A stretch of 64,000 nt of DNA from Ophiosphaerella korrae (Eukaryota; Ascomycota; Dothideomycetes; Pleosporales; Phaeosphaeriaceae), in NCBI GenBank assembly GCA_028456385.1, contig JALNQF010000081.1, positions 62,001 through 126,000 of the forward strand, read 5' to 3'. Shown in pieces: positions 31,899 through 51,052 of this stretch; the first letter of the stretch is position 1, and each line of letters opens with the position of its first letter. The position numbers and the translations under genes were made by a program. The notes beneath the pieces were generated by a model. It was given only the letters and a program-made list of their open reading frames with translations. It searched no databases and was not told the origin of the DNA.

Positions 31899-34726
31899 TC
31901 AAAACCTTAAATCCCATCCAATTTTAGGTCCAAGTTTGGGCAGTGCTTCTGCCACACTTTCCACATCCTTGTCACTTGAATACAAGTTAGCGAGGAGCAC
32001 AAGATTGCTCTGTGAGGATAGACATACCCTCTTCCACTGATACAGATGACAACATCTTGATCTTTCTTCATTGTCTTCGCAAGCTCAACGGCGCCCCAGA
32101 CAGCATGAGCAGTTTCGAGAGCGGGACTGATCCCCTCGAGCTCACTGAGCAACCTGAATCCCTCAAGAGCCTGAGCATCGGTAACGGCGGTAAAATCTGC
32201 GCGTCCCGAGTCTTTCCAAGCACTAAGCTCTGGCCTGTCCGAGTTGTTAGCAAAGCTGAACTGTCCTCCCAAAGTTGTGACACATCAGGAAAACATAGGA
32301 CTTTACTCACCCAACCCCGGCATAATCCAGACCAGCTGAGATGGAATGGGTATCTTGAATCTGTCCGTGCTGATCCTGCAAGACATATGTCCTACTCCCG
32401 TGCAAAACCCCTTTACTGCCGCCAGTCAGAGTTGCGGCATGCCTCTTCGTGTCAATGCCGTCTCCACCAGCTTCGATTCCCAGAAGCTTTACACTCGGAT
32501 CATCAATAAATGGATGAAACATTCCTATGCAGTTACTGCCTCCACCAATGCAGGCAACAACTGCATCTGGAAGTTTATTTCGCTGTTCCAGCATTTGAGT
32601 CTTCGTCTCCTCTCCGATAATAGTCTGGAAAGTGCGCACGATTGTAGGGAAGGGGTGGGGACCGATGGCGGAACCGATAATATGATAGGCGGTGTCCACC
32701 TTGGTAATCCATACTCGAAAACTTTCATTTACGGCGTCTCGAAGAGTTTTTGAGCCTGCCTCGACAGGGACAACCTCAGCACCAAGTAGTTTGATCCTGA
32801 ATACGTTCAGTGCCTGTCTCCTGATATCCTCCTATGCAGCTGTTAGATATGGACTTGCAACACTGGCCTAAGCCTGGGGACTTACTGCTCCCATGAAGAT
32901 TGTGCACTTCATATTGAATTTAGCACAAACGGTGGCTGTTGCTACACCATGCATACCAGCACCAGTTTGGGCAATAATTTCAGTCTTACCCAAGCGACGA
33001 GCTAGAAGAATCTGTCCAAGGGCGCTGTTGATCTTATGACTTCCAGTATGGTTCAGATCCTCACGCTTCAGCCAGATATTGGCTCCACCAACATGTTTAG
33101 TAAGGCGGTCTGCGACATGAAGATGCCCAGGCCTTCCTAGATAGGGATAGTGCGATCGAAATTCTGCCCAAAATTCGGGGTCATTACGAATCTTTTCAAA
33201 TCCTGCCTCCAATTCGGAAAGGCAGGTTGTGAGTGATTCTGGGGAATAGGATCCCCCGAATTCACCGAAGCGTGCAGGAAAGAGTTCTGGATCTCCTACG
33301 TCGTAATTCATTGCCTCTTCCTGATCAAGCAGTTCTGGATGATTGCCATTTAGATGACTAGTACCATTTAGGTGACTGGTACCATTTGTGAGGCCTGCTC
33401 CATTCAGATGACTGGTGCCATTTGTGAGGCCTGTTCCATTCAGGTGACTGGTGCCATTTGCGTGGCCTGTTCCATTCACTAGACCAGTGCCATTCGAATG
33501 GCTGGTACCATTTAGCTTTGGAGCTTCATTCGATGTCCCGTTGACGCCAGCGTCTTGGGTCGCTCTATTCTCTGGCGAGTTTCTCCTTCCACATATAGCA
33601 GCGCAGTATTCCTCGGCAGCTTTCGCCCGCTTTCCAGGGGAAGCTTCGGTCAAGGTTGTAATAATTTGACTGCCGATGACAACACCATCTGCTATTCTGG
33701 CGACACTTAGGAAGTGCTCTCTTGTGCTGACCCCGAATCCAACTGCCGTTGGAACGTTGCCCGAGTATTGCTTGATTCGTTTCAATAGCTGTGGTAGATC
33801 GGCATTTAGAGTGCCTGTTGCACCTGTGACACCCATACGCGATACAACGTAAACGAATGAGTCGGCAAGTTTGCAGAGCAATTTGAGTCGGTTCTCGGAA
33901 GTGGCTAGGATAAAGCGTTAGAAACCAAGCAGGTCGGATGAATAAAGCGAGGGCGGCTTACAAGGAGCGATAAGTGGTACGTATGACAACCTGTATGTCA
34001 TCATTAGTGGGTGTGTTTTATGACAGACCACCATAACTTACCCGCCCTTCGCACAGAAGTTCCTGAATTTTACAGCCTCATGCGGAGGAAGATCCACTAT
34101 AATGAAGCCGTTCACACCAGCCTCGCGGCAATCTTTCAACAGTTGTTCCTCGCCGTAACTCAGTATTGGGTTGTAGTAGCCCATCAAGAGCAGCGGTGCT
34201 CTGAGCCCTCTTTTTCGAGCTTGCTTTACCATGCCTAGGGTTGATTCTATAGTTACATTGTTCGCAAGCGCTTTCTTCAGATATAATTAGCAAATGCGTA
34301 GATAATGCAATAGAGGGGTACACTAACAGTATTCGCGCTCTGAATGGTTGGCCCATCCGCAAAGGGATCCGTAAACGGCTGACATTCATGTTAGAAAAAA
34401 ATTCCAGTATTCATTAGCACTTGATATTAGGTACTAACAATGCCGAGTTCAATGATATCTGTGAAAAAGGTCAATATTGCCGGTTAATCGGGTCGACATA
34501 GACGTATTGCGTACCTGCACCCCCAGCTTCCAATCCCAATATGATATCTACAGCCTCTTCAACTGTAGGATATCCAGCAGTAACAAAAGTCACAAAAGCC
34601 GGCTGTACCACCAGTCAGTAATGCCTTTGTGAAACCCACATAAAAGTACGTAGGTTCCGCCACTGAAGAGATATATACCCGATTTTCTTCTTTGCATTGC
34701 GCAAACGTCTTTTTGATACCCTCCAT
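31899..34726 (-). CDS. Bifunctional tryptophan synthase (alpha-beta fusion) with altered beta active site
   Basis: Fusion of TrpA-like and TrpB-like domains as in fungal Trp5. Normally alpha releases indole from indole-3-glycerol phosphate and beta joins indole to serine. Ten minus-strand exons: 34726-34679, 34602-34515, 34458-34439, 34378-34328, 34274-34042, 33990-33962, 33904-32886, 32831-32311, 32234-32028 and 31974-31899. All join in frame to give 763 residues; yeast Trp5 has about 707. Alpha: [19 protein letters not shown] has Glu49 and Asp60. Beta: [13 protein letters not shown] has the PLP Lys at 447. GGGSN and SGRGDKD bind the cofactor. The residue 22 after the Lys, Glu109 in E. coli TrpB, is Gln469 here ([11 protein letters not shown]), and the following Gln is Met474. 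Residues ~287-345 form an Asn-Gly-Thr repeat linker. Nine introns is many for this gene. It may be a second, specialised copy; that cannot be shown from this window. Confidence 0.93.
33341..33520 (-). repeat. Coding minisatellite in the alpha-beta linker
   Basis: About ten 18-bp units, partly arranged as 36-bp pairs. They encode six-residue units of the type [12 protein letters not shown] and TNGTSH between the two tryptophan synthase domains. Confidence 0.9.
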
Positions 34727-36149: not shown

Positions 36150-37708
36150 ATGCAGTTGCAGAAAAATGACGGCTCGAGTCAGGCGACCATAGTGTCTCTA
36201 CCTGGTCCCGACTCCATTAATCCTTCTACCAACTTCTCAGAAAAGGCGCTGTCAGAGAATGACCCAGCCGACAACCAACCGATCAACACTGACCCTGAGC
36301 AAGCCCAAAGACCGATACGCATAGAGGTAGAACCCCCTCCAGACGGTGGGTATGGCTGGGTCTGTGTGATGTGCGTCTTTTTGATCAATGCCCATACTTG
36401 GGGAATCAATAGTGTAAGGTTTCGTGGCTTTCAAACAAGGCTCGATATGCTAACTACCGTTACAACTAGTCATATGGTGTATTTTTGGCACATTATCTGA
36501 AAACAAATACATTCCCGGGGGCATCAGACCTAGATTTTGCCTTTGTGGGAGGTCTTTCCCTCAGTATGGCCCAATTCATCGCTCCTATCGCCACAATCAC
36601 TACTCGAAAATGGGGGACTAGGACTACCTTGGTGATAGGAGTCATACTCCAGACTACAGCACTATTAGGAGCGTCATGGGCGACCAAGATTTGGCAATTA
36701 TTTCTAAGTCAGGCCGTGTGTTTTGGATTCGGGATGGGAATGCAATTCAGTGCTTCTGTTGGTATCATCCCCCAGTGGTTCAGCCGCCGACGTTCCCTTG
36801 CAAACGGTATCGGAACGGCGGGATCAGGAATTGGAGGACTGATTTATTCGTTGGCATCAAGTGCTATGATTCAAAGGTGGGGTACTGGCTGGGCTTTCCG
36901 GATCTTGGCTATCGCATCAGCTGTTGCGTGTGGCTTCCCCGCTCTGATCATAAAGGATCGGAACAAGGCCATTGGAGCTGTTCAAAATGCCTTCCATGTC
37001 AGTCTTCTGAAAAGACCCGAGTTTCTGCTCACCGTGGCCTGGGGTTGCTTTAGCGTACTGGGCTATGTGGCCCTTCTTTTTTCAATCCCCAGCTACGCGC
37101 ACACCGTGGGCCTTACCGTATCTCAGGGCGCGATTCTTGGTGCGATGTTCAATCTTGGAGGCGCCCTTGGCAGGCCCATTATAGGGTACGTCAGTGATGC
37201 TTTTGGACCAATCAACACCGCACTCGTTTGTACTTTCCTGGCTGGCCTCTTTTCTCTTGTTATCTGGATCTTTGCGAAAACTTTTGGCGTCCTCGTCTTC
37301 TACGCTCTGGTTGGTGGCGCTGTTGCCCCAACTTTCACAACTACCGTTGCTCCAGTGGGTACCGAGGTCGTGGGATTGCAACTCTTGCCATCTGCCTTGT
37401 CTATCTTCTGGCTTTCGGTGGTCATACCAAGCACGTTTTCCGAAGCGATTGCCCTTTGGTTACGGACTGACAATGGAACCAATTTCCTCCACGCCCAAAT
37501 ATTCACTGGCTTTATGTATATAGCAGGAGCTATTTCCCTCTGGTTTGTGCGAGCGTGGAAGGTTTCAGAGGTGCAAAAGATCGGGAATGATATGGATAAA
37601 GATGCCGTGTCTCATCAGCCTGTGGTGACCAGGGCAGTGAGCAGAGTTCCCAGTGTGGCGAGCAAAGCAAAGGCTGCAAAGGGATTGTTCGCCATGGTAA
37701 AGGTATAA
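36150..37708 (+). CDS. MFS transporter, monocarboxylate porter (MCT) type
   Basis: Predicted plasma-membrane carrier of 500 residues. Exons 36150-36413 and 36470-37708. A 65-residue polar N-terminus leads to EPPPDGGYGWVCVMCVFLIN, the family's signature entry to helix 1. Splicing gives WGINSSYGVFLAHYL. About 12 membrane helices follow, with GFGMGMQFSASVGIIPQWF and RRRSLANGIGTAGSGIGGL (the usual loop and helix 5) and a large central loop after KDRNKAIG. Fungal members carry carboxylates, riboflavin or secondary metabolites, so the cargo is unknown. Placed head to head with the tryptophan synthase gene and upstream of a P450 gene, it could export or import a product or precursor of that locus. 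Confidence 0.87.
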
Positions 37709-38398: not shown

Positions 38399-38966
38399 CA
38401 CATCAATATGAAGTGCGATTTTCAACACACTCAAAACTAAGAATTCGTCATTGTTTAAACCAATTAAACTGAGATTTGTTACAGCTAAATATAACTTAGA
38501 CATGTGAAGTCACTTGCTTGGTTGTAATGATAAGTTGTTTTATTTAGTTAGAGCAGTGAGGTGTTTTTATTAGTGGAGCGTTTTCCGCTTCCCAATGGGC
38601 TAGTGGGTCACCTCGTGAAAATTGCGGCGCATCTAACTGGCCAACTTGCAATAGCACTCGCCACGCAACGTTCAAAGGCTATGAAAAGAAGGTAGGGTCG
38701 GTCAATCAGTACAGGCGAATTGGACCGAACGCGGTTGAAGCTCTCATCGAATTGCATGCGCAGTTGTATGACGCCTGACGCGTAAGCCCAGAAGCGGAAG
38801 CCAGAGACTATTGAGCGGCAGTCACAACCTAGTTGATTAGGTGCGACGCATTAGGACCTTAAGACTTCTAGATTGCTCGAGAACATCGCGACTGACGTGG
38901 ATATTGCTACAATTGGATATCACTAGCCGTGCTTATTCCCTGAACATGTTTGATTTGAGAATTGGG
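38399..38966. other. Spacer between the two inverted-repeat elements
   Basis: Moderately AT-rich DNA with no gene or further element that I can define. Confidence 0.45.
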
Positions 38967-38968
38967 TA

Positions 38969-39365
38969 ACGTGGTTTACAAGCGAGCCGCGTATACAAGC
39001 TAGGCGCGCACCCCAAAATACATCAAAAACAGCCTCGTGAATCTCAGCAACGGCTCTGCAAAATACCCTAATATATAAGTATAGCCTCTTATATATATAT
39101 TTAGTTTGTCATAAAATTCTTAGCTTCATAGGTTCTAATACTCCCGAGATATATTACTTTGGCCCCCAATTTCTAGATTTATTGATTATCTTACTTTGTT
39201 TTAAGAACTACTCAATATATTCTTTTCAAACCAAAGTATTAGTCTTAAGATATGTATGCAAAGTTTATATAAAAAATTTAGTTTATTTTATAGAGCTGTT
39301 GCTGAGATTCAAGGCGCTGTTTTTGGTGTATTTTGGGGTGCGCGCCTCGCTTGTAAACCACGTTA
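38969..39365. mobile_element. MITE-like element with terminal inverted repeats, copy 2
   Basis: 397 bp. Both ends read ACGTGGTTTACAAGCGAG, then GCGCGCACCCCAAAATACA, with a 17-bp local duplication in the left arm. TA flanks at 38967-38968 and 39366-39367. Same terminal sequence and inner CTCAGCAACGGCT block as copy 1, so one family. No coding capacity. Confidence 0.82.
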
Positions 39366-39430
39366 TCAAAATAATGTATTATATGAGTCTTATAAGTTGA
39401 GGGATTTGTATCTACAAGATAAATCCGCCC

Positions 39431-39563
39431 GCATCGGTGGTTTAGTGGTAAAATTAGCCGTTGCCATGACTTGACAATTCGGCTAGCCCCGGGTTCGAGC
39501 AAGTCTTGCCCCTACCATGGCTCTCAATCAATACTAACAATTGTTCAGTTCCCGGCCGATGCA
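39431..39563 (+). tRNA. tRNA-Gly (anticodon GCC) with a 12-nt anticodon-loop intron and a 50-nt T-loop insertion
   Basis: Acceptor stem GCATCGG (39431-39437) pairs perfectly with CCGATGC (39556-39562), with discriminator A. The D stem GTTT/AAAT and anticodon stem AGCCG (39456-39460)/CGGCT (39480-39484) pair fully; GCC is at 39463-39465. Twelve extra bases lie after position 37, where eukaryotic tRNA introns sit. The T stem CCGGG/CCCGG is intact, but the T loop TTCGA..TT is split by 39499-39548. Removing both inserts leaves exactly 71 nt, the normal tRNA-Gly length. Box A (TGGTTTAGTGG) is good; box B keeps GGTTCGA but loses its last bases. A T7 terminator follows. It could be a functional gene with two introns or a decayed copy; the paired stems argue against random decay. 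Confidence 0.75.
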
Positions 39564-39573
39564 ACTGATTATC

Positions 39574-39580
39574 TTTTTTT
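39574..39580 (+). terminator. RNA polymerase III terminator (T7)
   Basis: A run of seven T starts 11 bases after the discriminator base of the tRNA-Gly. A longer T run follows at about 39605-39618. Confidence 0.7.
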
Positions 39581-44375: not shown

Positions 44376-44667
44376 GGTGTTTGTTTGTCTGATATACGAT
44401 ATGATGTAGTGCGACTGTTAGCGATAGAAAGATATGCGCATTACGCGACCGCGACAGGTGTAAGACCAGAGGGAAGAATAAGGTCCTTTCTTTGTCTTGT
44501 TTTGATTCCAATACGTGCCTGCCATGTTGATACCCCACCCACGTCACCATCATCTGGGGCTCTCAACCCTGCACATGCGCTAACCTATCTATGTTAGCTG
44601 CAGATCTAGCGTGCCAAACTACTTTGTCCACGCGACTTTTACATCCCTCTGCACATCCAACCTCATA

Positions 44668-45735
44668 ATGCCACCTATAGACTACGATGACGACATTGAG
44701 GACACGAACGAGAAGTACCATGAGTCTGACGATGAGGACTTCAACCCAGACACCGCACCTCCCGAGGAGGCATCGAGCGAATCCGAGGACGAAGATGCAC
44801 CCTCAATTCCCGCACAGCGCAAGGGCAAACGGAAGGCACCAGTAGATGACGAGCTCGATTCTGGAGATGAGATCACAATACAGAATGCGCGCAAGAAGAA
44901 GATCAAGAAGGGAAAGAAGGGCAAAAAAGGTAATGATGAAGATGACGACTTGATCATATCAGACGACGATGGCGAAGGCGGTCTGATCAAGACACGAGCC
45001 CAAAGGAGAGTTGAAAAAGTAGAACGCAGGCCACTCGCCAGGACAGAAGGTGCAACCATTGATGTCGATGCCTTGTGGGCGCAGATGATCGCCCCACCAG
45101 CGAAACAAGCACAACTAGTTGAGCCCCAAGAACTCGAAGTATCAACTACCCCAGCCATCACTACAGACACACCAGCACCAGCCGCCGCCGAAGAAGAAGA
45201 ACAAATCTTGATAAAGAAAACCTACACATTCGCCGGCCAGGACACAACCGAAGACAAGTCGATACCACGCTCCCACCTCGATAAATACCTCTCCTCGGGC
45301 TGGACGCCCACATACCCGACCGAAAAAGCGACAGGCGACAGCTCTAAACCGAAAGCCAATACATCGAAAATACGCCGTCCTCTTCGCCGTCCCTCGCGCT
45401 TCGATCCAAATCCTACAGGTTACGTCCGCGCCCTAGCGCCCGAGTTCCAGCTTACGTATCCACGCGCACATGCCACTGCTCAACAAAACGCCCTCATGCC
45501 GCCACCAGAACTCCCTACCAAAACACGTCCCGAGAAGACGCAAAAGCTCAATGTCGTCGACAAATCGCGTATGGACTGGACGGGTTTCGTGGACAAGGAA
45601 GGTATTGCCGACGAGTTGAATACGCATGGCAAGACGAAAGAAGCGTACCTGGGCCGTATGGAGTTTTTGGCCGGTGTGGAAGCGAGGAGGGAAGAGGAAA
45701 GAAAAAAGGCAAAAGTTGCTGCTGGTGCAACGTGA
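44668..45735 (+). CDS. SWC5: SWR1-complex protein 5 (BCNT-C domain)
   Basis: Subunit of the SWR1 chromatin remodeller that installs histone H2A.Z. A single exon of 355 residues. The N-terminal half is strongly acidic (DYDDDIEDTNEKYHESDDED) with a Lys-rich block (RKKKIKKGKKGKKG), typical of histone-binding Bucentaur proteins. The C-terminal BCNT domain starts near KTQKLNVVDKSRMDWTGFVD and continues KEGIADELNTHGKTKEAYLG and RMEFLAGVEARREEE, the invariant family signature. The ATG at 44668 is preferred over an in-frame one at 44611 because the acidic N-terminus is the normal start. Confidence 0.93.
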   Translation: MPPIDYDDDIEDTNEKYHESDDEDFNPDTAPPEEASSESEDEDAPSIPAQRKGKRKAPVDDELDSGDEITIQNARKKKIKKGKKGKKGNDEDDDLIISDDDGEGGLIKTRAQRRVEKVERRPLARTEGATIDVDALWAQMIAPPAKQAQLVEPQELEVSTTPAITTDTPAPAAAEEEEQILIKKTYTFAGQDTTEDKSIPRSHLDKYLSSGWTPTYPTEKATGDSSKPKANTSKIRRPLRRPSRFDPNPTGYVRALAPEFQLTYPRAHATAQQNALMPPPELPTKTRPEKTQKLNVVDKSRMDWTGFVDKEGIADELNTHGKTKEAYLGRMEFLAGVEARREEERKKAKVAAGAT

Positions 45736-46444: not shown

Positions 46445-49400
46445 TTAGTAACTGGCATATTCCACCGCGTTTTGAAACTCATCCTCGCTCTCATTATCAG
46501 CCTCATCTAGTTCAGCAGGTGGCTTGATGCGTTTCGGCTTCATACTAGTATATATTGATAACACCAATTCTCGCGAACCCAGAAAACTTTTGGCTTTCAA
46601 TCGTGCCAATTCCCTACCTGCCATCTTAAAAACGAAGTTGGCCTTTTTAGGTATTGGATATAATGCGTAAAGCGTTGACGCCTTGATGGTTTCCCACAAG
46701 AACGTGTCTGGACCACAATATGCTTCGACCCATGGCTTCACCTCATCTAAATTCGATTGTGAAGGCTGTATCGCTTGATAGAGTCGGTAGCACTCTTCTG
46801 CATGGGAATCCTTCTCTGCTAATGTAACCGTGGCCGATCGCAGGAAGCCGCCAGACCACTGTGAATTCAGCTCGACCAATCGAGTTTTAAGCACGCTCAA
46901 TTCGTTCTCGGTTGCAGGCCCCCCTTTTGCTAGGTGTTCATATGGATACATTAAGGTATTGTCCGGTGAGTCGCTGTTAGCGAATACTTGCTTTATCTGT
47001 TCGCCAGTCTCGGTATTGTGTTTGCGAAATACGTCGAAGTACAGCCAATCCACGATGTGTCCCGGCTTATGCCGATAGGCCTTCTGCCTCATTCTATCCA
47101 CCACATCAGTATCGTTGATGCCAGTGCAGTCGTCCATCGCTACTTTATAGGCAGGCAACTTGAGCTGAGGCCGAACTCCAAGCAATGCTTTCTGATATGA
47201 ATTGAAGTCTTGTCTGGTAAATATATACCCTTGTTTAGGTGCATCAACAAGAAGATCATGTAGGCCGCAGAGTTCATCCAACATTACTGAGGATATTTCG
47301 TTTTCTCGATACGTCAGCTTTTCGAGCAAGACTGTAGCCTGCCCAAGCAACGACGCATTAGACCGAAATTTGAAAGCTTCCTGCAGCAGGTTGTCTACCG
47401 AGTTCAAGTCGTCGGGGTCCATTATATCCTTTACTTTCTTTCTTTCAACCTTGATGCCATATGTTTTTGGATCTGGGCTTTGCACTGGCGCCGGAGCATT
47501 GAGGAACGGAGAGACCAGCTCGTCCTCCCAGCACAGCCAAAACAAGTCTCCATCATAATCACCACCTTGGAGTTTACCAGCAAGTGGAAATTGCCCTCGA
47601 GACGGGAAAACGACAATATCGACTAGATGTGAGAGGGCGGGGTGGACTACAGCGCGAACCTTTTGTATATCGGAGCGTCGACAGGCTGGTTGACGAGCGA
47701 CAAGGATGTTCATGTCCTTGAGATTTAGATAGCTCTCCTCCGTCAACTCGTCAACAAATCTGTTCGAGAAGTGTATATGAACTTCCCCAGGTCTGAGTAC
47801 TTCGAGGGGATCCGCAATTCCAAAGAGAAACGTTGACTTGCCCAACGATGTACGCAACTTTGATTCTTTCAAAAGTTGTTTGTTCTGTACAAAGCGCTTG
47901 ATTGTACCTGCTAGGTACGGTAGTTTTGTAGGATGGAAGCCGGATTCGAGTAATAACTTGATCTTCTCCTCTAAGATCACGGGCATAGCCCCTTGCCACA
48001 GGACATCGCCACTAGGGCCAGAAGAGGTTTTAGCACCGTTACGATGTAGCCATTCATACATCCTCGTGAGATCCTTCAATGCATACAGTAATTCGGCCCG
48101 ATCAGCATCTAAACGTCTGTTCATCATGGCAGCAATACAATCTCTTGGAACGCCGCGATCAACGAGGATCTGGATGAAGGAGATGTGGAGCTCAGACGGC
48201 GATGGCGCCGAGCTGTAATTTGAGACCTCGAAAGTTAGCCGTATAGGATCAAATCCGTCGTCATATTTATCTTGTGCGTGTGGGTTGAATTTCAGTTGGC
48301 TGTCGTTGATCTCTATCCAGAAATCGAGATCGTCTTGGTCCTTGCTGAACGACTCTCCACTGACGATCCACATACCCTTCGCCCCCCCAATACGACCCTG
48401 GAAAGCACTCGGTAGTGGCTGTGGTCCTTTTATTCCAACTGCATACCTGTATAGCTTCCAAATTTCGGTTGCGGCGGCGACGGAGATGCGCGAGCACCCA
48501 TCATTCATCACCTGTGGATCTTGAGGATTGTGCCAATGAAGCGTGGGGTCATTAAATTCAGTCGCTTCCTTGTCTCCTTTATCAGGATCCGAAAGTTTGT
48601 TTGGGACACGCCTGATCTGTGTCGGTTTGAAAATTAACGTCGGAACTGTCCGTGAGAGGCCTAAATCGAAGCGTGCGTATAGTTTGCAATATGTTTGATC
48701 TTGATTTGTTGCAAATGGCACGAACCAGTTAATCATTTCGCCAACAGAACAAGGGTGTTCAATACCACAGCCTTTCGTGGCAAAGAGCACAATGCGCTTA
48801 TCATGTGTAGCATCTTCTTGGCCACGTTTACCCTTTTTGTTTCTTGTCGGTTCAACATGAAATACTCTCCATTTCCGACCTAGAAATGTATGTTCCATGC
48901 CCAGCCATTCCTCCCATCGTTGACGTATTTTTTCCATATTTTCCTTACAGAATCGACTCGATGATTTACCCTCGAAGGTGGGCGCGGTCACGTACAAGTA
49001 GCGGTCAGATCCAAACTTCCTTTGAAAACGACAAGAATTGTCTGCCTGGATTGGCAAAACATCGAAGGTGAAGACAGGCCCGTCTAGCTTTGCGTTGAAT
49101 GAAATCTTGCCTTTGAAAGTGTATCCTTCAAAGTTTCGCTTCGCAGCATTCCAAAATTTGTTCCCTAGGCTCTTTTTAAGGGAAGAAGTCTTGGTATTAA
49201 TTTGGCTGTCGATGGCCGACCAAAAGAGCTCTGAATTTGCATATATAGTTTCATCGTGTACCACCTCGAGTAGGCTTTCTGGGGAAACGGAAAATTTTCC
49301 AGCAAGGTGTTGACAGATGAACCGAACGAAGTAAGGAATATCCTGGAAAAGCATGGACAGGTCCTGGACGAAAAGATTTTGGCCCGGTATGTTACGGATG

Positions 49401-51052
49401 ATGAACCATTCCTTGGGCCTCTTGGCTGAACCAGACTGCGGCTGCCCTGAGCGAACACTTGAGGGGAAATCAACATATGGAGGATTTTTCAGGTCGCGTT
49501 TGCCATCATTTGGCTTTTTTGATTCTTGAGACAACGTTATCGGTGGTAAGATAGTTTTTGAATGTGACTTTGTCGCTGCTTCGATTGTGTCGGCTACATT
49601 GTAAAGCATCTCATCATCGATCGAGCCGTAGGTTGAATTACTCTCTCGACTAGCTTCCTGCGAAAGGGCGCGTTCTCTTTCCCTCTGTACTTGGAGATGA
49701 TGCTCGCGTTCATGCTTCATCGCTTCCGTTTCTGCTGCTGCGACTGGGATAGGCCCGTAGCTAGTCGAGTTCGTTCTTGTAGATTTATAATCCGAGGCAT
49801 TTCCCGGGGCGGCATCCTCTCGCTCGCTTTGCTTAGCATTTTCTTGCTCAACCCTGCGAAGCGCCGTATCCATTTCTGTTGTTACTGGTAAAGACTCGAG
49901 GCGTGATGAGCTCGTCTTTATGAACCTATTATATGGTGCACATTCATTAACCCCATCAGTCTCGAACGACGTATTCGCACTTATCGCTTGCGTTCGTTGC
50001 GTAGAGAAGACGGAGTTAGTATTATTAAACGATGTATTGGCCGAGGAAACCACAGAGGCGGCCACTTTGGGTTGAAACGAACGAGCCATTTCTGGTAGTG
50101 GCTTTTTGAACTGAAGTGGACTGATTGCGTGGTCGACTGGATGCCTTCCTTTGGAAGTACGCGAGTTCTTTGGTGAGGACTCTGAAGCACTTGAGCCTTC
50201 AGATGGCCTTTTCCTAGCATGGGGTCTTATATTTCCCCGTCTGTCCACTGCAGATTCCGAAGGTGAAGGTGGCGTGTGGTAATCATCGTCATCGTCGTCG
50301 CTATCGCTATCGCCATCCACATCGGTCGGCGACCCTGGGTCGGCACCGGCAGCAGTGTGATATGAATCGGCTCTTTCATCATCTTTAATAGGTGCCTGAA
50401 ACCGGAGAGCAGTTCGGGGAGGTCGATCAGCTGCGACTTCAGATCAGCCTTATCTTACTTTGAGCTGGATGGGGAGAATGAAAGATGATCATAAAGTATA
50501 CATAGTTCTAGAATTTAAGTGGAGAAGATGATGTAGAAGCGGAGTGCGGGTAATAGTAGGTATCCAATCAATTTTAAGGGTCCGCCTACCCTTAGATATG
50601 TGCCTATGCCGCGATACTGAAGGCGTACCGGGAGGAACCTTGCTTTTAAGCACGTCATATAATAGATCTAAGTGCCTCTCTGGCGCAGCCGTCGTTGCAA
50701 GATCTCGAAATAGCTTTACTGATGACTCGAGTATTGACACATTGTGATAGTATAACCGTTTGAATAAGCCGTAGATATTGTCAGTAGTGCCCTTGTTAGC
50801 GTTGGATGGCGACCATTCGTTTCCGCGAATCCGGAGACCCAAACGCCATTCGTCCTCCAAAGCTTGGAACCGTCTGTTGAGGTCCGCTCCGGATTTGGTC
50901 GGCTTTGTGTCGAGGGCAGCTCTGGAGTTTGCGTGCTGCGGTGTTCTGGGTAGTGAAACAGATTCAGCAAGCGCCACACTTGGATTGGCCCAAATTCTTG
51001 CGTCGTAGTTGCCTTGGTTCAAGCGTTGGTTCAGCCGCGGGGACGGCCGCAT
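46445..51052 (-). CDS. RNA-dependent RNA polymerase, QDE-1-like
   Basis: Cellular RdRP of the RNA-silencing pathway, which makes double-stranded RNA for Dicer. The main exon runs from about 50396 to 46445 with more than 1290 codons. It encodes LAGKLQGGDYDGDLFWLCWE near 47565-47530; DYDGD is the catalytic metal-binding motif of the double-psi barrel, and the Tyr form is that of the QDE-1 clade. Other landmarks: FSNRFVDELTEESYLNLKDM, VHPALSHLVDIVVFPSRGQF and YHKPG-like AYRHKPGHIVDWLYFD. An upstream exon (51052 to roughly 50590) holds NRRFQALEDEWRLGLRIRG, a plausible N-terminal domain piece. I could not fix the splice sites between the two (50396-50590), so the N-terminus is provisional. The region between them and the catalytic core is Ser-rich and disordered. 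Confidence 0.88.

Follow-up and report, generated by a model that had tools for sequence, protein, structure and literature searches.

Probable spliceosomal introns in tRNA-Gly(GCC) and other nuclear tRNA genes of Ophiosphaerella korrae

A stretch of 64,000 nucleotides from the genome of the fungus Ophiosphaerella korrae (contig JALNQF010000081.1, positions 62,001 to 126,000, hereafter the window) very likely carries a working nuclear tRNA-Gly(GCC) gene with introns of two kinds, namely an endonuclease-type intron at 37/38 and, within the T loop, a U2-type spliceosomal intron of 50 nt, and this gene appears to be one member of a genome-wide class. At least 17 mRNA-type introns of 49-54 nt were read in 16 genes of 10 isoacceptors, and, as read from the assembly, the phenomenon is larger than the single gene in which it was first seen. 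Removal of the inserts by the spliceosome is the best reading, with the genes very probably forming a class of spliceosome-dependent tRNAs. A passage of a 2026 review describes tRNA splicing as independent of the spliceosome (PMC13149111), and according to the tRNAscan-SE 2.0 paper a eukaryotic tRNA gene has no more than one intron (PMC8450103), the exceptions given in part of another study being nucleomorphs and a red alga (PMC4090602). Among the papers listed by searches of an open-access library, which leaves out bioRxiv preprints and most subscription papers, none reported spliceosomal introns in tRNA genes.

The window gene is composed of the following features.

39431..39466, + strand: tRNA-Gly(GCC) exon 1, with the acceptor 5' strand, the D arm and the 5' side of the anticodon arm to position 37; the same in all four genomic copies found
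39438..39449, + strand: presumed A box of the internal Pol III promoter, TGGTTTAGTGGT, intact; an overlapping 16-mer occurs exactly 4 times in the genome
39467..39478, + strand: canonical-site intron of 12 nt at 37/38, of the tRNA endonuclease type; called by ARAGORN on the T-loop-spliced sequence as tRNA-Gly (gcc) i(37,12)
39479..39498, + strand: tRNA-Gly exon 2, with the 3' side of the anticodon arm, the variable loop, the T stem 5' strand and TTCGA
39492..39500, + strand: presumed B box, split by the insert after A58 and reading GGTTCGA, followed by GC from the intron, where the other 13 T-loop introns have GT
39499..39548, + strand: spliceosomal-type intron of 50 nt in the T loop between 58 and 59; its removal leaves a complete tRNA (ARAGORN)
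39499..39504, + strand: putative donor GCAAGT; the remaining three Gly genes have GTAAGT, GTATGT and GTAAGA
39532..39538, + strand: putative branch site TACTAAC, whose branch A, at 39537, precedes the last G by 11 nt; TACTAAY in all four Gly copies
39546..39548, + strand: putative acceptor CAG, the intron ending in TTCAG
39549..39563, + strand: tRNA-Gly exon 3, with the remaining T loop, the T stem 3' strand, the acceptor 3' strand and A73
39574..39580, + strand: T7 run, read from the sequence as a Pol III terminator

The A-box assignment goes by the consensus for that element, and the B-box consensus is GGTTCGANTCC. The coordinates and letters of the split tRNA-Gly(GCC) given in the original prediction, including the 50-nt GC-AG insert, TACTAAC and the T7 run, proved exact on recheck. 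ARAGORN finds no tRNA in the whole window and none in the unspliced Gly gene, and none of the four Gly loci matches the Rfam tRNA model up to E = 1, in line with the expectation that standard finders would miss the gene. Once 39499-39548 is deleted in silico, ARAGORN calls tRNA-Gly(gcc) with a 12-nt intron, bearing out both the claim that this removal restores the tRNA and the claim that the second insert sits at the canonical tRNA intron position.

The surroundings of the gene contain several other recognizable features. Just upstream lies an inverted-repeat element (38962-39370) whose arms, 38991-39071 and 39278-39358, are 81 nt long and 86% complementary, and which looks like a small terminal-inverted-repeat (MITE-like) element. 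Pfam matches nearby comprise a tryptophan synthase with alpha and beta parts (32868-33917, - strand), an MFS transporter (36470-37708, + strand), a BCNT/SWC5 gene (44584-45735, + strand) and an RNA-dependent RNA polymerase (46445-50443, - strand). The SWC5-type protein at 44584-45732 shares 83% identity with that of Phaeosphaeriaceae sp. PMI808 and 70-72% with Phaeosphaeria and Ophiobolus proteins; this one protein points to a Phaeosphaeriaceae-like member of the Pleosporales.

The whole assembly (63.0 Mb, 974 contigs) yielded four Gly(GCC) genes, all four with a T-loop insert at the same bond. An intronless Gly query returned only these same four, every match stopping at the T loop, and an uninterrupted tRNA-Gly(GCC), the search for which had been suggested originally, was not found; the DNA search depends on long exact words (a spliced His query missed even the gene His1, and a query of concatenated fungal tRNAs found two Pro(AGG) genes and nothing else), so that a diverged uninterrupted Gly isodecoder could have escaped, as could interrupted genes whose exons are short. 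All exon positions are identical among the four genes. In gapped alignments between copies, similarity amounts to 58-82% for the T-loop inserts and 51-61% for the flanks, conservation falls sharply at the tRNA ends, and the drifted inserts retain the donor, TACTAAY and YAG in every copy. Exons identical in all four genes beside diverging inserts and flanks form the pattern of purifying selection on the exons and, judged at the level of sequence, are what selection on the spliced product looks like. Because tRNA-Gly(GCC) reads the GGC and GGU codons, a dead gene family is very unlikely.

Of the four options offered by the original prediction, an intron inserted into a tRNA is therefore the supported one, given the interruption of all four Gly genes and their invariant exons, and the same two observations make a recent pseudogene very unlikely. 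A further suggestion, that the insert might be part of a repeat family unrelated to introns, fared no better, as a 133-nt query matched nothing at E <= 0.001 outside the four Gly genes and the insert gave no sign of belonging to a near-identical repeat family.

Beyond Gly, inserts of this kind were found in nine isoacceptors, namely His, Glu, two Leu, Arg, Ile, Asp, Lys and Pro. Fourteen of the 17 introns lie at 58/59 in the T loop (Gly, His, Glu, both Leu, Arg, Ile and Asp), a common position that is partly a product of the search method because the patterns used fixed the donor after TTCRA; the rest occur in the D loop, at 25/26 and inside the anticodon. The D-loop insert, in Lys(TTT), follows A14. 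His1 carries three introns in one gene (25/26, canonical and T loop), and in Pro(TGG) (contig C973, L072/L113) a GT-AG intron between 34 and 35 splits the anticodon, with a canonical intron alongside. According to ARAGORN, most of the interrupted genes have a canonical-site intron as well. No uninterrupted copy was found for Gly(GCC), His(GTG), Glu(CTC), Leu(TAA), Leu(TAG), Arg(TCG), Ile(TAT), Lys(TTT) or Pro(TGG), Asp being the sole isoacceptor of the ten with an uninterrupted gene.

Further discovery relied on patterns joining TTCRA to an intron-initial GT, together with an insert-tolerant covariance model (R1) built from the tRNAs of this genome. Patterns and model added Glu(CTC), Leu(TAA), Arg(TCG), a second Glu, Ile(TAT), Leu(TAG) and Asp2, and homology searches contributed His2 and a third Glu (Glu3). 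By itself the short pattern was not enriched in either search, giving 26 matches against 24 for the reversed pattern in the first set and 108 against 159 in the second. Seven of the 26 first-set loci are tRNA genes, six recovered by R1 at default filters and Asp2 with filters off only; among the 47 fetched of the 75 new matches listed for the second set, four are tRNA genes (Glu2, Ile, Leu(TAG) and Glu3). A T-loop intron pattern had seven of its eight matches in tRNA genes, with a single match for its reverse.

Support for the individual genes came from several sources. R1 was applied to 14 of the 16 interrupted genes, all but His2 and Glu3, and matches 11 over their full length at 25-62 bits (the four Gly, Lys, Pro, two Glu, two Leu and Asp2); five of these (two Glu, two Leu and Asp2) lie outside its training set, which included Gly, Lys, Pro and His sequences. 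The R1 match ends elsewhere than at the true 3' end of the gene in Arg (41.9 bits), Ile (23.4) and His1 (24.9), so these three rest on sequence reading together with ARAGORN. When spliced, all 15 sequences submitted to ARAGORN (Glu3 outside the set) were called tRNAs, 12 with the expected anticodon, compared to one of 15 when unspliced; the program put the His anticodon wrongly and called Pro(TGG) a Leu(taa) even without its GT-AG intron. The anticodon arm of Ile(TAT) pairs uncleanly. A run of T5 or longer occurs within 40 nt downstream of 15 of the 16 genes, Leu(TAG) having been looked at over 12 nt only.

Other candidates and sequences were set aside. The Rfam tRNA model gave 55 matches over the genome, many of them on contig C92, which was taken for mitochondrial from its clustered tRNA genes. 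Counting isotypes absent from this list as interrupted was dropped, as the model missed Pro(AGG), a gene with a canonical intron only, and absence from the list cannot therefore count as interruption. A tRNA-Ser(TGA)-like sequence (L055, contig C24:310280-310410) with a 52-nt insert at 37/38 was left uncounted, since by eye no GT-AG pair restores its anticodon stem; this stem pairs poorly, and the insert is neither clearly canonical nor clearly spliceosomal. A mostly A+T-rich, degenerate repeated tRNA-like sequence, partly Ile(TAT)-like, was also observed (L043, L044, L056, L070 and L071 on contigs C35, C171, C477, C656 and C769) and is possibly a tRNA-derived SINE family.

The inserts carry the signals of spliceosomal introns. 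Every one of the 16 tabulated introns opens with G[TC]A[ACT]G, has YTRAY in its interior and closes with YAG, the 17th (Glu3) also fits, and none of 32,000 mononucleotide shuffles had all three signals together. The ends are GT-AG throughout, the one exception being the GC-AG of the window copy. The branch A lies 9-14 nt from the intron end in 15 of 16 and, by the strict motif, 24 nt from it in Asp; for comparison, one study reports for fungal U3 introns a mean of 15 nt between branch site and acceptor, together with RCTRAY and YAG (PMC5832005). Donor-fixing patterns found the T-loop introns of His1, Glu1, Glu2, Glu3 (also by homology), Leu(TAA), Leu(TAG), Arg, Ile and Asp2, that is, 8 of the 16 tabulated introns and 9 of all 17, and for those nine the donor is consequently not independent evidence. 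Seven were found without any donor pattern (Gly2-4, the His2 T-loop intron, the His1 25/26 intron, Lys and Pro), and the signals are present in all of them. As to length, the proposal that 50 nt is that of local introns holds in that mRNA-type signal sets in the window peak at 45-59 nt (11 against 2 in the reversed sequence), though the wider range of 42-110 nt shows no excess (27 against 27). The tRNA inserts thus share size (49-54 vs 45-59 nt) and signals with mRNA-type introns of the window that are defined by motifs, not transcripts.

Paralogue pairs delimit two of the introns exactly. His1 (L112, contig C279) and His2 (L111, contig C135) are identical in their exons and canonical intron; the 53-nt 25/26 intron of His1 is exactly absent from His2, and the junction coincides with the GT-AG prediction. 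As far as the two sequences tell, this difference reflects the exact gain or loss of one whole intron within a tRNA gene. Similarly, Asp1 (L049, contig C778, 15791-15872) lacks the T-loop intron of Asp2 (contig C334), and its joined T loop reads exactly as predicted; in view of an A:C mismatch in its T stem, Asp1 may itself be weak or decaying. From the His and Asp pairs, the ends of two introns follow without recourse to any splice motif.

Expression of such a gene could proceed as follows. Pol III would transcribe the interrupted gene from its internal promoter, as the internal boxes and T runs suggest. The Gly A box is intact; the B box is broken after A58 in the 14 T-loop genes. With the T-loop intron situated at the end of the B box, the A-B distance is unaltered, and the first intron letters, GT, would stand in as the next two B-box positions, restoring two letters in 13 of the 14 cases; the window copy has GC. 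In Lys the A box is interrupted after A14, and there too the intron GT resembles the letters normally next. The spliceosome would subsequently excise the intron, using its donor, branch A and YAG and restoring the T loop, and ordinary tRNA processing would presumably come next, including endonuclease excision of the 37/38 intron. Consensus folding of the unspliced Gly genes predicts acceptor and T stems that enclose the insert, and no normal D arm. Against this explanation stand the interruption of the B box, which may affect the efficiency of Pol III, the lack of a precedent for spliceosomal removal from tRNA precursors among the papers listed, and the one uninterrupted Asp gene.

It is highly unlikely that the tRNA splicing endonuclease instead removes the inserts as non-canonical tRNA introns of the sort known from archaea, nucleomorphs and Cyanidioschyzon, although most of the same genes do have canonical-site introns and part of one study describes 25/26 and T-loop introns in archaeal tRNAs and up to three introns in nucleomorph tRNAs (PMC4090602). 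The central helix of a bulge-helix-bulge forms one of four pairs in 15 of 16 introns and three of four in Lys, 2-4 of the 4 central pairs form if each side may shift freely by up to 3 nt, and the Gly consensus fold grants the insert one pair only, between its last G and a T-loop C. Moreover, the GT-AG ends, branch site, spacing and length fit mRNA-type introns, and the endonuclease needs none of these. Transcription by Pol II, with the interrupted genes read as longer spliced transcripts from which the tRNA is cut out later, would accommodate the interrupted B box and the fact that spliceosomal introns normally occur in Pol II transcripts; it is nonetheless unlikely, as T5 or longer stands directly behind 15 of the 16 genes, the Gly A box is intact and conservation drops sharply at the tRNA ends.

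Insertions in the T or D arm of eukaryotic tRNA genes are generally read as marks of pseudogenes in the section of the study that treats them (PMC4090602), and accidental inserts in dead genes would be the corresponding explanation here. It is extremely unlikely, given that Gly(GCC), His(GTG), Glu(CTC), Lys(TTT) and Pro(TGG) are interrupted in all copies found, the Gly exons are invariant in four of four while inserts and flanks drift, splice signals are retained in 17 of 17 introns, and the presence/absence pairs are precise.

If the inserts are spliceosomal introns, their mutual likeness bears on their origin. Across isoacceptors, T-loop introns give a mean z of 0.98 over 81 pairs, with 26% above z 2 (His and Glu, for example), whereas T-loop introns compared with 11 window mRNA-type introns give a mean z of 0.13 over 154 pairs, with 4% above z 2 (Mann-Whitney p 2.7e-6, the pairs not being independent). 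This homology is weak pair by pair and visible in the set only, with identities of 64-75% among the cross-isoacceptor pairs shown in the best 25. Such likeness is a hint that the introns spread between tRNAs at a single site. Tentatively, and with somewhat less than an even chance of being right, a tRNA-adapted family of spliceosomal introns may have moved between tRNAs by insertion at 58/59, a freed intron perhaps entering the exposed T loop of another tRNA by reverse splicing, with reverse transcription to follow. On this account, the insertions would leave Pol III transcription alive because the intron GT completes the B box and the A-B distance is unchanged, and essential tRNAs would then need both spliceosome and endonuclease.

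The fungus seems to need two splicing machines for one tRNA. If this is true, tRNA supply would depend on splicing, the spliceosome would handle Pol III transcripts other than U6, intron gain could be followed in a clean system whose sequence is of fully known function, and essential tRNAs would be silently lost by standard annotation in such genomes. Should the family also have spread as proposed, the supply of Gly-GCC, His-GTG, Glu-CTC, Lys-TTT and Pro-TGG would couple translation to splicing capacity.

Several known systems resemble these introns in part. The canonical eukaryotic 37/38 tRNA intron is present in the same window gene (12 nt), and the T-loop intron differs from it in position, length and signals. 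The tRNA introns of archaea, nucleomorphs and Cyanidioschyzon merolae likewise occur outside 37/38, in the T arm, at 25/26 and in the D arm, with up to three per gene; they are described in part of one study as endonuclease substrates with a bulge-helix-bulge (PMC4090602), whereas no such motif was found in the inserts described here, which have spliceosomal signals in its place. Introner-like elements of Dothideomycetes, the fungal class of the host, are short, spreading spliceosomal introns, and the T-loop introns resemble one another across isoacceptors beyond their likeness to mRNA-type introns, so that the original description of the insert as introner-like stands in this respect. It does not stand in another: introner-like elements are near-identical copies according to a section of one paper (PMC4457414), whereas near-identical copies were not found for the tRNA introns, whose hosts, moreover, are tRNAs.

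The U6 snRNA of this genome gave a single match (contig C185:41983-42081, 69.4 bits, whole model) and is apparently uninterrupted. In fission yeast, U6 is a Pol III gene and a known case of a spliceosomal intron in such a gene, and fungal rRNA genes also have spliceosomal introns. The introns of fungal U6 snRNA and U3 snoRNA are comparable to those described here in having GT-AG ends and RCTRAY branch sites inside small structured fungal RNAs. In one study, 138 of 310 fungal U3 genes are interrupted, U3 and U6 are named as the sole small structured RNAs for which frequent interruption was known at the time, and fission yeast U6 is cited as the classic intron case (PMC5832005). The present introns differ from these in that the host is a tRNA, many isoacceptors are involved, an endonuclease-type intron lies alongside in most genes, and the internal promoter is often split.
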